IMG/VR virus record: IMGVR_UViG_3300013297_000361
Span: 1 to 29,580 of that record
Length of the DNA: 29,580 nucleotides
Direction: 5' to 3' (one strand)
Source: a virus
Translations under genes and position numbers: made by a program
In this document: positions 20,141 through 29,580 of the stretch, in pieces
Layout of the letters: every line of letters starts with the position of its first letter
How positions within the stretch are numbered: position 1 is the first letter of the stretch
Notes under the pieces: generated by a model
Database searches by the model: none
Told to the model about the DNA's origin: nothing
Seen by the model: only the letters and a program-made list of their open reading frames with translations

Positions 20141-20316
20141 CACGCAAGTTCCAACCGGGCGAGCGTGCATGGATCGCAAGCGCATGGCGCCGGGTCATGA
20201 GGGTTGACCTCTTCGACCGCGCGCGCCTGGAGGGCGGCGAAGCGCTCAACATCTGCGCGGCTTTCGGGCTGGGCGCGATGTGGGCCGATGTCGGCGAGCG
20301 GAAGGTCGCGGGTCAT
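20140..20316 (-). CDS. Uncharacterised protein, 58 aa
   Basis: The ATG at 20316 overlaps the end of the Cro-like gene (ATGA), and the stop at 20140 overlaps the next ATG (TGATG). The product (MTRDLPLADIGPHRAQPESR start, helical ADVERFAALQARAVEEV middle) ends with a CACDPC cysteine motif (C45, C47, C50) that may bind a metal. Perfect overlaps at both ends support it as a real member of the operon. Unknown function. Confidence 0.5.
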   Translation of the reverse strand: MTRDLPLADIGPHRAQPESRADVERFAALQARAVEEVNPHDPAPCACDPCTLARLELA

Positions 20317-20531
20317 GCTGCGGCCTGGGATGCAGGCGCTTCGCCGAGGTCGAAGAAGTCGTTGGGCGTGACTTCGCCATCCGTCTCACGGGCGATGATC
20401 GGCATCGTCTCCTTGTCAGGAATGCGCTCGCCAGCGGCGTACCGACGCACGGCCTCGGCGGTCCGATTGATCCGGACCCCGAACTCTGCGTTGTTGAGGC
20501 CCTTCGCCTTGAGCCATTCCGCTAGCGTCAT
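20313..20531 (-). CDS. Cro-like XRE-family repressor
   Basis: A 72-residue protein with a helix-turn-helix: TLAEWLKAKGLNNAEFGVRI then NRTAEAVRRYAAGERIPDKE, the size and fold of lambda-type Cro proteins. It is the first gene of the leftward operon, divergent from the CI-like gene, with three operator-like palindromes between the two starts. It presumably binds the same operators and turns off the repressor and early promoters during lytic growth. The role is inferred from position and fold. Confidence 0.75.
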   Translation of the reverse strand: MTLAEWLKAKGLNNAEFGVRINRTAEAVRRYAAGERIPDKETMPIIARETDGEVTPNDFFDLGEAPASQAAA

Positions 20532-20549: not shown

Positions 20550-20564
20550 ACACCATTATGGTGT
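20550..20564. promoter_or_regulatory. Repressor operator O1 (ACACCATTATGGTGT)
   Basis: A perfect palindrome: ACACCAT and ATGGTGT around one central base. It covers the -10 element of the leftward promoter. Related 15-mers occur at 20584, 20610, 22342 and 22367. Confidence 0.8.
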
Positions 20565-20584
20565 CATGGAGCCGGTGTCGTCAA
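20555..20584 (-). promoter_or_regulatory. Leftward early promoter (pR equivalent, cro operon)
   Basis: On the minus strand TTGACG (20584-20579) and CATAAT (20560-20555) are separated by 18 nt, a good sigma-70-type match, 24 nt before the Cro ATG. Operator O1 covers the -10 and operator O2 touches the -35, so repressor binding would block it. Confidence 0.65.
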
Positions 20585-20598
20585 CACCATTTTGGCGT
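20584..20598. promoter_or_regulatory. Repressor operator O2 (ACACCATTTTGGCGT)
   Basis: Two mismatches from O1. Centre-to-centre spacing is 34 bp from O1 and 26 bp from O3. Confidence 0.65.
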
Positions 20599-20609: not shown

Positions 20610-20624
20610 ACACCGGATTGGTGC
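20610..20624. promoter_or_regulatory. Repressor operator O3 (ACACCGGATTGGTGC)
   Basis: Keeps the ACACC and GGTG half-site cores. It lies 11 nt upstream of the chosen CI start codon, so it may mediate autoregulation. Confidence 0.55.
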
Positions 20625-20634
20625 ACAAAGCGGC

Positions 20635-21303
20635 ATGGGGAGCGCGAACAACATTCAGCTTCTGAGGGAAGCGCGCGGCTGGTCGCGGCCAGCGCTCGGG
20701 AAGCTCATGGGCACGAGCGGTCAGCAGATCGAACGTCTCGAGAAGGGTCAGCGCAAGCTCTCGCAGGACTGGATCGACAAAGCGGCTGGCGCTTTCGGCG
20801 TCCCCTCAACTGCGATAATTTCCGAAGCCCTCCCTCATGGACTCACGGACACACCAAGCGCACGGGGTTCGCGCGACGACAGTGAAAGCGCCCGGCTGGC
20901 AATGGTCGGCATCCGCTATTCCGATGCCGATTTCGGTCTAGGCGCCGTTTTCACCGATGATGCACCGCAAGTCGAACTACTGCAGTTCCCGCGCGCCTGG
21001 GTGGAAAGCATCACCTATACGTCGCCGGCGATGCTCAGCTGGGTGCGCGCCCGCGGTTCCTCGATGAAGCCGACCATAAACGACGGCGACATGATCCTGC
21101 TAGATCACTCGCAGCGGAAGGTCGAGGATCAGGACGAAATCTGGGCATTCACCGTTGGGGACACTCGGGCGATCAAGCGGCTCCGCGTGAAGGGGGACCG
21201 GTACCAGATCCTTTCAGATAACCCGAGCGTGCCGCCTGACGAGGAGCCGATCGACTTCGTCAACATAGTGGGACGCGTGATTTTTGTCGGGAGTAGGACG
21301 TGA
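20635..21303 (+). CDS. CI-like lysogeny repressor (XRE HTH + S24 peptidase-like domain)
   Basis: 222 residues from the ATG at 20635; an in-frame extension to 20545 would read through the operators and was rejected. Residues 5-60 are an XRE helix-turn-helix (NIQLLREARGWSRPALGKLM, then GTSGQQIERLEKGQRKLS). Residues 115-220 are S24/LexA-like: GSSMKPTINDGDMILLD (candidate S143) and RAIKRLRV (K181). The usual Ala-Gly or Cys-Gly cleavage dipeptide is not seen in the linker, so SOS self-cleavage is uncertain. It should bind the five operators and hold the lytic and recombination arms silent. It is divergent from cro and is followed co-directionally by three genes in rex position. Confidence 0.85.
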   Translation: MGSANNIQLLREARGWSRPALGKLMGTSGQQIERLEKGQRKLSQDWIDKAAGAFGVPSTAIISEALPHGLTDTPSARGSRDDSESARLAMVGIRYSDADFGLGAVFTDDAPQVELLQFPRAWVESITYTSPAMLSWVRARGSSMKPTINDGDMILLDHSQRKVEDQDEIWAFTVGDTRAIKRLRVKGDRYQILSDNPSVPPDEEPIDFVNIVGRVIFVGSRT

Positions 21304-21347: not shown

Positions 21348-21578
21348 ATGGCATTGAATGAGACCCTGTTGAATTCATTTGCGACGCGTGGCGACATCGC
21401 GCGACTTAATCTGCAGCTACGTCAGCTAGATATGATAGTTCGGCTCGCAGTAAATATGGTTCACGTTGGAAAGCTTGACACTACACAGACTGCGCAAATT
21501 TATCAGGCCCTAGACAATTTGCAGAACGAACTTAATGCGGACTTTCGGGCACTCACCGGGTGGACCCCAGATGCCTGA
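21348..21578 (+). CDS. Uncharacterised rex-position protein 1, 76 aa
   Basis: A small, largely helical protein (ALNETLLNSFATRGDIARLN, then LQLRQLDMIVRLAVNMVHVG, ending ELNADFRALTGWTPDA). Its sequence is visibly more AT-rich than its neighbours, suggesting separate acquisition. It lies 44 nt after the CI-like gene on the same strand and overlaps the next gene by 8 nt. It is likely co-transcribed with the repressor in the lysogen. No family was recognised. Confidence 0.55.
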   Translation: MALNETLLNSFATRGDIARLNLQLRQLDMIVRLAVNMVHVGKLDTTQTAQIYQALDNLQNELNADFRALTGWTPDA

Positions 21579-21942
21579 CGCAGACGAGACGAAGCGCGAC
21601 TTTTGGGCCCAAATGCAGGCGATGCGGTCGCGACCCTATTCCGCCAGTGATGATGGAGCCTTGCGCGGAGATGGCGGAGGGGGCACATCAGGCGGCGTGA
21701 CCGAAGATTGGAAGGCGTCTGTGGATCGTCAGCTCGATCAGCTGCATAAGGACGTACGCGCTCTGCTGCGCTGGGGGGTCGCCGCCGTAGTTGCCTTGGC
21801 CTTCATGATAGCCGGCCTATACGAGCGGACCAATTCTCGTTTTGATGCCGTTACAACGCGCATCGGCGGCATGGAAGTCCAGCAGGCCCACATCAGCGAC
21901 AAGCTTGATCAGCTTTTAGAGCGCACGCCGCCTAAGAAGTGA
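21571..21942 (+). CDS. Coiled-coil membrane protein in rex position, 123 aa
   Basis: Layout: a polar N-terminus with a glycine-rich patch (about 30-42), a helix DRQLDQLHKDVRALLRWG, a single membrane span (about 71-88, VAAVVALAFMIAGLY), then a second coiled-coil segment to the end (SRFDAVTTRIGGMEVQQAHI, SDKLDQLLERT). This resembles XhlA-like and other small phage membrane proteins. The chosen ATG (21571) overlaps the end of the previous gene; a longer in-frame GTG-type start is possible. Expression with the repressor and a membrane span would suit superinfection exclusion, but that is inference. Confidence 0.6.
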   Translation: MPDADETKRDFWAQMQAMRSRPYSASDDGALRGDGGGGTSGGVTEDWKASVDRQLDQLHKDVRALLRWGVAAVVALAFMIAGLYERTNSRFDAVTTRIGGMEVQQAHISDKLDQLLERTPPKK

Positions 21943-21943
21943 A

Positions 21944-22333
21944 GTGCCGATCACGGGGCTAACGCTCGCCGTCGTTGGCGCTGACTTCCCAAACAAGCGC
22001 GGCCCGACGCGCCGCTTCGCCATCTCACTCTGCCGTCCGGGTGATCCGGTGCTGCTCGTCCCTGAGCCAAAGAACCCAGCAGACCCGCGCGCCGTGCAGG
22101 TTCAAAGCGCCGAACGTGTCGTCATGGGCTACCTAACGGCCGAACGCTGCGGCTGGATCGGCGGCATGATCGCGGAAGGGCGAGACATCAAGGCCATCTT
22201 TCAGGAGCCGACGAGCTACGGCGCGCTGATACGCGTGACGCTCGACGCGAACCCGCCTGATCTGCCGCCAGAACGCGAGCCGCCGAATCACGATCCCGAT
22301 TGGTGGCCGGACGAGATGCCGCCAGACGAGTAA
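21944..22333 (+). CDS. Stand-alone HIRAN-like domain protein, 129 aa
   Basis: Residues about 4-100 follow the HIRAN pattern: VVGADFPNKRGPTRRFAISL, then PGDPVLLVPEPKNPADPRAV with conserved P-x-NP-x-DP-x-AV, VMGYLTAERCGWIGGMI and a closing beta strand. In HLTF-type proteins HIRAN binds 3' single-stranded DNA ends; here it stands alone with a proline/acidic tail. The GTG start is one base after the previous stop. It ends just before the second operator cluster, so it is the last gene of the repressor unit. Likely expressed in lysogeny; a role in sensing damaged or invading DNA is speculation. Confidence 0.7.
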   Translation: MPITGLTLAVVGADFPNKRGPTRRFAISLCRPGDPVLLVPEPKNPADPRAVQVQSAERVVMGYLTAERCGWIGGMIAEGRDIKAIFQEPTSYGALIRVTLDANPPDLPPEREPPNHDPDWWPDEMPPDE

Positions 22334-22341
22334 CACCATCA

Positions 22342-22356
22342 ACACCAATACGGTGT
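22342..22356. promoter_or_regulatory. Repressor operator O4 (ACACCAATACGGTGT)
   Basis: A 15-mer palindrome of the same family as O1-O3. A further half-site ACACCAT lies just upstream at 22333-22339. It overlaps the first base of the -35 element of the rightward promoter. Confidence 0.75.
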
Positions 22357-22384
22357 TGACATGCCGACACCAATGTGGTGTTAT
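22356..22384 (+). promoter_or_regulatory. Rightward early promoter (pL equivalent, recombination arm)
   Basis: TTGACA (22356-22361) and TGTTAT (22379-22384) are separated by 17 nt. Operators O4 and O5 bracket and overlap it, so the same repressor that silences cro should silence the recombination/integration arm. Confidence 0.65.
22367..22381. promoter_or_regulatory. Repressor operator O5 (ACACCAATGTGGTGT)
   Basis: A near-perfect palindrome lying in the spacer and -10 of the rightward promoter, 25 bp centre to centre from O4. Confidence 0.75.
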
Positions 22385-26867: not shown

Positions 26868-27785
26868 ATGGCGCGTGCAGTTCATTGGAGCGATAATGAT
26901 CATCGCTGGGGGCCGTTCACCTATGCCCGTGAGCGCCGCTATCGCCAGTTAGGCGCGGTCATCACCTCCGGCAAAGAGGAGGACGATGATTGGAATAACG
27001 GGTGCTACGTTCGCTTCCACGCGTTCGGGCACACGCTGATCATCGCTCTGCCGCAGATTATCCAGCCCGCCCGGATATGGGTCGACACATCACGCCACAC
27101 TTGGGCGTCGGCGCGAGGCGGATACTGGCAGATCTGGCCTCGCGATTTTGGTTTCTCGTTCTCCGATGGCGCGCTGCACGTCCACAGCGGACAGAGGACG
27201 CACGACAGCACCACGGATCGGACGAAGGTCTATTTCCTGCCTTGGCGGGCGTGGCGGCACGTTCGGCACAGCTTCTACGATCTGGAGGGGCGGCACGTCG
27301 CTACCATGCCGCAGATGAAGGGCGGCTATCTCGCCAATCCGCATCGCTGGGAGGTTGAGCGCGCAATTGAGGCCGTTTGCCCGACCGCGTCATTCGACTT
27401 CCTCGATTTCGATGCCGAGGCCCTCGTGGCCACGACCAAGATTGAGGAGCGTGAATGGTGGTTCGGCGAAGGCAAGTTCAAATGGCTGTCGCTGTTCCGG
27501 CGGCCCAAGGTTCGGCGGTCGCTCGACATACGCTTCTCCGGCGAGACTGGCAAGCGCAAGGGATCGTGGAAGGGTGGCACTGTAGGCCACAGCATCGACA
27601 TGCTGCCCGGCGAACTGCACGAGCCCGCGTTCCGCCGATATTGCGTTGAGAACGGGATGACGTTCGTCGGTCCCGCGTCAGTCGATACCCACCCGGAGGG
27701 CGGAGACGCGAAGCAGGCTCCGTGCGCAAGCATGGGTAGCGCGATCAGCGAAGCTGAGACGCCCGAAAGGCCCACCCATGAATAA
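26868..27785 (+). CDS. Uncharacterised phage protein, 305 aa
   Basis: Aromatic-rich and basic: ARAVHWSDNDHRWGPFTYAR opening, WNNGCYVRFHAFGHTLIIAL, WASARGGYWQIWPRDFGFSF and a C-terminal WKGGTVGHSIDMLPGE. An AAGGAAATC ribosome site precedes the ATG. The pattern (R-RYRxLGAxI ... LPQI) recurs in alphaproteobacterial prophages, but no function or catalytic motif is known to me. It is the largest unassigned protein of the right arm, with recombination genes on one side and integration genes on the other. Confidence 0.6.
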   Translation: MARAVHWSDNDHRWGPFTYARERRYRQLGAVITSGKEEDDDWNNGCYVRFHAFGHTLIIALPQIIQPARIWVDTSRHTWASARGGYWQIWPRDFGFSFSDGALHVHSGQRTHDSTTDRTKVYFLPWRAWRHVRHSFYDLEGRHVATMPQMKGGYLANPHRWEVERAIEAVCPTASFDFLDFDAEALVATTKIEEREWWFGEGKFKWLSLFRRPKVRRSLDIRFSGETGKRKGSWKGGTVGHSIDMLPGELHEPAFRRYCVENGMTFVGPASVDTHPEGGDAKQAPCASMGSAISEAETPERPTHE

Positions 27786-28449: not shown

Positions 28450-28780
28450 CCTCATCTCACAACAGGCCTTTACGGTCGAAGGCCTTGCGTCACGCTGGGG
28501 CTGTAGCGAAGGTGCGATTCGAAAGCGCATCCGGGAAGGTGATCTGCATTGCTTCCGGATAGGAACGCTGATCCGGATACGGCTGGAAGAGGTGGAGCGA
28601 TTCGAATGCCAGACTACAGCGTCCAGCGGTTCCGCGGCGGATTCGCACTCGTCTATCGAGACGCGAGCGGAAAGCGGTGCAGGCATGCCCTTGGGGCCGC
28701 CGATCGGATTGGGGCGGAGGCGGAGGCCCGTCAACGATGGAGGCTCGGCGACCGTTCTACATGGACCGTGGGACGCATAG
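28436..28780 (+). CDS. Excisionase-like HTH protein, overlapping the integrase
   Basis: Residues about 10-58 are a MerR-like/excisionase helix-turn-helix: QAFTVEGLASRWGCSEGAIR, KRIREGDLHCFRIGTLIRIR, LEEVERFECQ. Such proteins bend att DNA to direct excision. The remaining 56 codons overlap the integrase in another frame (175 nt overlap) and are low-complexity, so the essential part is the N-terminal half. It directly precedes the integrase as in many phages. Directionality-factor function is inferred. Confidence 0.65.
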   Translation: MGAHSLISQQAFTVEGLASRWGCSEGAIRKRIREGDLHCFRIGTLIRIRLEEVERFECQTTASSGSAADSHSSIETRAESGAGMPLGPPIGLGRRRRPVNDGGSATVLHGPWDA

Positions 28781-29580
28781 TGGAAGCCTATATGCAGGAC
28801 CGCGCCCGTGAGGGTATCGCGACCGCAACCCGCCAGCGCGACGCATGGAAGGCGATGCGAGGCCATTGGGAGCATGTGAACCCGCGCCTGATCGATAAGG
28901 AGATGGCGCAGGGCTATAACCGGCAGCGCGCCCGCTCTGCGTCCACGGTCCGTTATGAACTGTCGATGCTGGCCGTTGCGCTGCGCTGGGGTAAGTCGAA
29001 TGGCCTAATCCAGGAGGCGCCCGAGATATGGCGGCCAGATCCCCCGGAACGCCGCGAGCGCCATTTGTCCCGAGACCAGTTCCGCCGCTTCCTGACAGGC
29101 GTCAAAGCCCCGCACGCGCGTCTCTACATGGTGCTAGGCATCGCGACCTGTGCGCGGCCCACGGCACTGCTCGAGCTTACGTGGGATCGCGTGGACTTCG
29201 ACCGGGGGCTTATCGACCTTAATCCGCGTGGACGATCGCAAACAGCCAAGCGCCGGCCGACCGTTCCGATAGCCGATTACGCCCTGGAGCCCTTGCGCTC
29301 TGCCTATGAGGCTCGCCAATCAGAATATGTGATCGAACGTGGCGGGAGGCGTGTCGCCAGCATCAAGAAAGCCTTTTCGGCTGCCAGCGAAAGGAGCAAT
29401 GTTGTCGCGACGCCCTACACGCTCCGGCATACGGGCGCCGTCTGGCGGGCGGAAGATGGCGTTCCAATGAGCGAAATTGCGCAGCTTATGGGGCACGACG
29501 ACAGCGCGACCACGGAAAAGCATTATGCCCGCTATAGTCCTACCTATCTCCGAAAGGCGGCCAATGCTGGATCGTGGTGA
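28606..29580 (+). CDS. int: Tyrosine-type phage integrase
   Basis: 324 residues from the ATG at 28606 (GGTGGAG upstream). An N-terminal arm/core domain (about 50-140) is followed by the catalytic domain: CARPTALLELTW (R184), K215, YTLRHTGAVW (Y271, R274), MGHDDSATTEKHY (H297, nucleophile Y307). The usual first histidine of the H-x-x-R box is tyrosine here, a variant also known in other integrases. It performs attP x attB recombination and ends at the window edge. Confidence 0.9.
   Translation: MPDYSVQRFRGGFALVYRDASGKRCRHALGAADRIGAEAEARQRWRLGDRSTWTVGRIVEAYMQDRAREGIATATRQRDAWKAMRGHWEHVNPRLIDKEMAQGYNRQRARSASTVRYELSMLAVALRWGKSNGLIQEAPEIWRPDPPERRERHLSRDQFRRFLTGVKAPHARLYMVLGIATCARPTALLELTWDRVDFDRGLIDLNPRGRSQTAKRRPTVPIADYALEPLRSAYEARQSEYVIERGGRRVASIKKAFSAASERSNVVATPYTLRHTGAVWRAEDGVPMSEIAQLMGHDDSATTEKHYARYSPTYLRKAANAGSW

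Follow-up and report, generated by a model that had tools for sequence, protein, structure and literature searches.

What do the genes that a temperate phage places directly behind its repressor do in the lysogen? Phage lambda keeps rexA and rexB downstream of its repressor, and whatever a prophage encodes in this rex position should, unlike most of its genes, be active in every lysogen. The window analyzed here, a viral contig of 29,580 bases, carries three genes in this position (21348-22333), and a preliminary description regarded them as a candidate exclusion unit, in which a HIRAN-like protein would be paired with a membrane protein in the manner of RexA and RexB.

The three genes lie in a putative lysogeny operon

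The minus strand of the contig encodes head, terminase, portal, and replication genes, and the plus strand carries a RecE-/RecT-type recombination module. A tyrosine integrase gene (28552-29580, plus strand; PF00589, 7.9e-17) supports the view that the phage is temperate; its open reading frame (ORF) runs to the edge of the contig, which is thus incomplete. The host is probably a Sphingomonas-type bacterium. Two further genes were recognized in the window, one coding for a protein that strongly matches Acb3, an inhibitor of CBASS (26868-27785, plus strand; PF25187, E 2.7e-78), and the other for a GP88-family phage protein (19259-20185, minus strand; PF17338, 2.7e-10). The phage is, by this match, predicted to carry an anti-defense gene downstream of its recombination genes.

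The immunity region is a mirror image of that of lambda, with a Cro-like gene on the minus strand and an S24-type repressor gene on the plus strand diverging from each other. The Cro-like helix-turn-helix (HTH) protein (20313-20531, minus strand) matched HTH_3 at 0.0007, which is under the cut-off of that model, and the transcriptional repressor family phrog_35 at 1e-4. The CI-type repressor (20635-21303, plus strand, with the start codon at 20635 picked by eye) consists of an HTH domain and an S24 peptidase (Pfam Peptidase_S24, 2.3e-18; HTH_31, 5.4e-09; phrog_4, 1.6e-32). It is followed on the plus strand by g1 (21348-21578), g2 (21571-21942), the HIRAN gene (21944-22333), two operator copies, and early genes including RecE and RecT. 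From the repressor to the three genes, no intrinsic terminator was found on the plus strand. Moreover, g2 overlaps g1 by 8 nt and the HIRAN ORF starts with a GTG 1 nt past the g2 stop codon, and since these ORFs overlap or almost touch each other, the repressor, g1, g2, and HIRAN are likely to be cotranscribed.

A pattern scan of the whole window revealed 7 copies of the operator ACACCA-N3-TGGTGT at two or fewer mismatches, compared with 0.7 per window in shuffled sequences. Three of them form a first cluster between the Cro-like gene and the repressor gene (20550-20564, 20584-20598, and 20610-20624), and two, with the same 15-bp motif, form a second cluster downstream of the HIRAN gene (22342-22356 and 22367-22381). 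Thus, the three genes do lie in a rex-like position, running in the same direction between the repressor and the second operator cluster. This layout supports their membership in the lysogeny operon.

The last gene encodes a stand-alone HIRAN domain

The third protein (129 aa; 21944-22333, plus strand) scored 33.8 bits against PF08797 (cut-off, 24.7), and a profile of 72 HIRAN sequences matched the HIRAN domain of human HLTF at 6e-07. Its AF2 model (pLDDT 90.6) matched HLTF HIRAN (PDB 4S0N, 5BNH, and 6KCS) with a Foldseek probability of 1.00 and VIA Z scores of 11.7 to 12.4, the rmsd being 2.3 to 2.9 Å over 92 to 99 residues. Every confident match of this model in the PDB was a HIRAN entry; RexA was absent from this list, an absence that by itself does not exclude it. 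These results firmly indicated, from Pfam, the PDB profile match, and the predicted fold, that the protein is a true HIRAN domain, and the earlier term "HIRAN-like" can be upgraded to "HIRAN." HamB of the Hachiman system was also matched by fold, but with a Z score of 7.2, under the level that means kinship, and this candidate was rejected.

In HLTF, Y72 and Y93 line the HIRAN pocket (PMC4666394), and the N90A-N91A mutation disables the domain (PMC11237066). The counterparts of HLTF N91 and D94 were invariant among the relatives (72/72), and that of Y72 was a Phe in 67 of the 72, whereas the counterpart of Y93, the second stacking tyrosine, is A46 in the window protein and is not conserved among the 72 relatives. 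With Y93 lost, DNA may be bound more weakly or in another way; yet, with N91 and D94 kept and an aromatic residue at the position of Y72, the protein shares part of the 3′-end pocket of HLTF, and it is plausible that this pocket binds 3′ DNA ends.

Unlike HLTF, the window protein is not fused to a helicase and has an added C-terminal tail. In 60 of the 72 relatives, a variable linker is followed by the acidic-aromatic motif F-W/Y-P-D-x-x-W/P-P-D-D/E, which bears no more than a resemblance to the acidic SSB tip. Such a tail is also present in HIRAN copies outside phages, which suggests that its partner would be found in the host cell. The protein has no transmembrane segment (maximum hydropathy, 0.98), and the HIRAN gene is under strong purifying selection, with a median dN/dS of 0.07.

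HIRAN is coupled to diverse repressors in viral loci

Scanning viral contigs with the HIRAN alignment yielded 80 loci, 76 of which were nonredundant and scorable. A same-strand upstream repressor was present in 71 of these 76 loci, in a search that began with a phage protein and covered viral contigs, and 3 of the 5 unlinked loci have less than 1.5 kb of upstream DNA. The repressor gene directly adjoins HIRAN in 39 of the 71 linked loci, with start and stop codons overlapping in 23 of the 39 (by four nt in 15 and by one nt in 8), and cargo genes lie between the two in 32. Among the loci compared, the repressors were 26 to 55% identical (often about 30%) to that of the window and the HIRAN proteins 48 to 68%. 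Judged by this gene order, HIRAN is the final, conserved member of the predicted lysogeny operon.

For the 71 loci, palindromes upstream of the repressor were compared with those downstream of HIRAN, using mismatched loci as the control. At least 11 of the 12 arm bases agreed in 45% of the loci versus 3% when the flanks came from different phages (p 2e-10), and the agreement reached 67% in cargo-bearing loci versus 28% in adjacent ones. Since the operator motif varies between phages, this agreement reflects matching within each phage and not a common background sequence.

We also found HIRAN matches in Sphingomonadaceae genomes (40 of the 299 sampled species). Among the best 30 genome loci, a repressor lay within the 1.5-kb flank in 13, and the flank ended early in 3 more. 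The remaining genome copies look like orphans, as do the plasmid copies, which lie outside phage repressor operons, and this suggests that the protein has uses outside lysogeny. On the HIRAN tree, which was built from few columns and has many open forks, linked and orphan states changed at least 10 times. In a class-wide search, HIRAN matches beyond the genome used as the start were only weak (the next best having 3e-20), and the tail-bearing family therefore looks largely confined to the Sphingomonadaceae. As for the surroundings of plasmid copies, the orphan on the Sphingobium plasmid pTK4 (L014) is near SOS-peptidase and polymerase Y genes, and those on two other plasmids (L013 and L018) are directly behind MucR-type regulators.

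Prokaryotic HIRAN domains are still termed uncharacterized (PMC11090510). In HipL kinases and HipN antitoxins, the bacterial HIRAN, for which a role in sensing the ends of phage DNA has been proposed, is fused to kinase or HipS-like domains (PMC8262856), whereas that of the window is stand-alone and resides in a repressor operon. The preliminary description knew of no superinfection-exclusion system of this composition, and this is nearly right, except that a published relative in kind exists: ThaL is reported to be a transmembrane HIRAN protein from a temperate pneumococcal phage regulated by C1, and its gene belongs to the lysogeny module (PMC12637031). ThaL is from Streptococcus and is named transmembrane, whereas the sphingomonad HIRAN is a soluble protein with the membrane protein encoded apart from it; still, the sphingomonad group is not the only one with a HIRAN gene in a lysogeny module. 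In the literature searched, we found no paper on HIRAN in sphingomonad phages, nor a description of a stand-alone HIRAN coupled almost constantly to a repressor across a variable slot. Lambda already provides precedent for the position and for the idea of lysogeny cargo.

g1 and g2 constitute a separable cassette in a variable cargo slot

The first gene of the cassette, g1 (21348-21578, plus strand), codes for 76 aa predicted to form a helical hairpin (helices 14-40 and 45-70; AF2 pLDDT 81), and its GC content of 0.49 is lower than that of the repressor gene, the HIRAN gene, and the genes farther downstream (0.61 to 0.66). The product of g2 (21571-21942, plus strand; 123 aa) has a Gly-rich linker, a coiled coil, and a single hydrophobic span with a maximum 19-residue hydropathy of 2.09. 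Both proteins are therefore as first described, an AT-richer helical one and a coiled-coil membrane protein with one span.

Single-sequence searches of phages and viral contigs returned no close relatives of g1 or g2, and relatives were reached only via HIRAN neighbors and a bridging genome locus (L112), in which the product of the gene at the same position (L112:1901-2248, minus strand) is 40% identical to g2 over 82 aa. The g1 family of other loci gave a colinear profile match to g1 of the window, with a P value of 1.6e-4 in one comparison and 0.16 in the control, which is weak support for direct homology between them. Neither protein had a convincing match in Pfam, NCBIfam, or PADLOC. A match to the PADLOC candidate PDC-M03B (E 2.6e-05) covers only residues 145-183 of the 245-aa model.

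A helical gene and a gene for a Gly-rich coiled-coil membrane protein precede HIRAN in L035, L043, L048/L118, L056, L075, and L112, and the trio therefore recurs at the same position in at least six phages or prophages besides the window. Pairs of the g1-g2 type were also found without HIRAN, in the repressor operons of L146, L147, and L151 and elsewhere in L148 and L150, indicating that the cassette is separable. In the latter two loci, both from Sphingomonadaceae genomes, it sits beside genes that look like (2Fe-2S) subunits of the xanthine dehydrogenase type, apparently outside a phage.

The slot between repressor and HIRAN holds many other genes. Sixty percent of 47 slot genes were envelope-like (membrane or signal peptide) versus 11% of 539 other ORFs of the same loci (p 1e-13), as called by a hydropathy rule and against a background in which some ORFs are spurious. 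Candidate defense families of PADLOC were matched by several of the slot genes: a HipA-like kinase (HipA_2) paired with a DUF3037 protein (L046:3275-4980; PDC-M66A/B, 7e-63 and 6e-78), a DUF1828 protein with a 157-aa partner (L057:3727-4991; PDC-M24B), and a PDC-S42 candidate (L019:3828-4739). A 383-aa protein matching the Nal1 C-terminal domain (L052:3623-4774; PF25819, 2e-13) occupies the slot as well. Filled and empty slots changed at least 14 times on the HIRAN tree, and L019, the nearest HIRAN relative of the window in the tree, carries a different cargo. Viewed across these loci, g1-g2 is an exchangeable cassette, apparently one of many cargoes in the slot, and a constant HIRAN behind diverse repressors, together with the variable slot, provides a marker for cargo and defense genes in sphingomonad prophages.

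Proposed role of the operon and alternative explanations

Considering the operon layout, the bracketing operators, the predicted fold, the linkage, the cargo turnover, and the purifying selection, we rate the chances as about even that a HIRAN encoded in the lysogeny operon acts on DNA ends in the lysogen and is accompanied by a separable, swappable membrane cassette. The three genes would then be the downstream part of the repressor operon, expressed from the prophage, with g1-g2 as one of many envelope- or defense-type cargoes alternating in the slot. The small, cytoplasmic HIRAN protein would most likely bind 3′ single-stranded DNA ends with its pocket, and its acidic-aromatic tail would most likely recruit a host DNA metabolism protein. 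Its targets in the lysogen would be the ends that infecting phage DNA or intermediates of recombination and replication expose, and competitors would be excluded or the prophage state would be held, with the membrane cassette not being needed. A more far-reaching model, which we put forward tentatively, is that a repressor-coupled HIRAN end-binder both guards the lysogen and sets the induction threshold in Sphingomonadaceae phages, with the tail docking a host DNA repair protein and the middle of the operon serving as a hot spot for envelope and defense cargo. With the HIRAN-repressor system, it can be clearly tested whether the binding of DNA ends serves phages in the control of superinfection or of induction, two roles between which sequence cannot decide.

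That HIRAN tunes prophage induction and does not exclude other phages is possible but clearly less probable than a general action on DNA ends. Occupancy of 3′ single-stranded DNA ends would alter RecA loading and thereby cleavage of the adjacent S24 repressor. Such a role agrees with the tie of HIRAN to the repressor itself, with start and stop codons often overlapping, and with retention of the S24 serine motif in 73 of the 75 repressors compared. It also has a parallel in SzaL of another pneumococcal lysogeny module, which is reported to alter prophage activation through single-stranded DNA-binding host proteins (PMC12637031). However, HIRAN is better conserved than the neighboring repressors, and orphan copies with the same tail exist on plasmids and chromosomes. 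HIRAN thus does not depend on a particular repressor.

Another explanation, which we regard as rather unlikely, is that g1-g2 is a self-contained toxin-antitoxin-like or abortive infection pair and HIRAN a mere neighbor. In nearly all cassettes examined, with or without HIRAN, the small helical-type gene overlaps or abuts the membrane gene, which favors this reading, but neither protein was convincingly matched in the three databases named above.

Still less probable is a true RexAB-like exclusion, in which HIRAN would sense the ends of incoming phage DNA and then trigger a membrane-damaging g2. The arrangement does resemble lambda cI-rexA-rexB, in that same-direction genes behind the repressor end at a second operator cluster with a shared motif and a protein with a DNA-binding-type fold is encoded beside a membrane protein, and the recurrence of the trio in at least six other loci is in favor of this reading. 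Likewise, in prophage P1 of Pseudomonas putida, a CI-like repressor gene is followed by RexAB, again with one DNA-binding and one membrane protein (PMC12894663). That pair, however, has a fold of the RexA type, a membrane protein with four spans, and no HIRAN, whereas in the window HIRAN takes the place of RexA and the membrane protein has a single span. In addition, the Pfam, PHROGs, NCBIfam, and PADLOC matches of the three proteins included no Rex family. More importantly, unlike in lambda, the gene of the DNA-binding type persists without a membrane gene, as in the 39 linked loci in which HIRAN directly adjoins the repressor, and g2-type cassettes occur in three repressor operons that lack HIRAN. 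The RexA/RexB-like pairing suggested in the preliminary description is thereby rejected as a general rule, since either module is often found alone and a Rex-style pairing of sensor and effector does not fit.

Finally, the deviant GC content of g1 and the lack of close viral relatives of g1 and g2 in single-sequence searches could point to functionless moron genes carried by chance, but this is very improbable in view of the strong purifying selection on HIRAN and its conserved place across very divergent phages.

As a separate observation on the repressors, nearly all of those from the window and L019-L098 have Met-Gly or Leu-Gly at the position of the cleavage pair, which is Ala-Gly in LexA and lambda CI. 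Repressors of this type may differ in their cleavage behavior.
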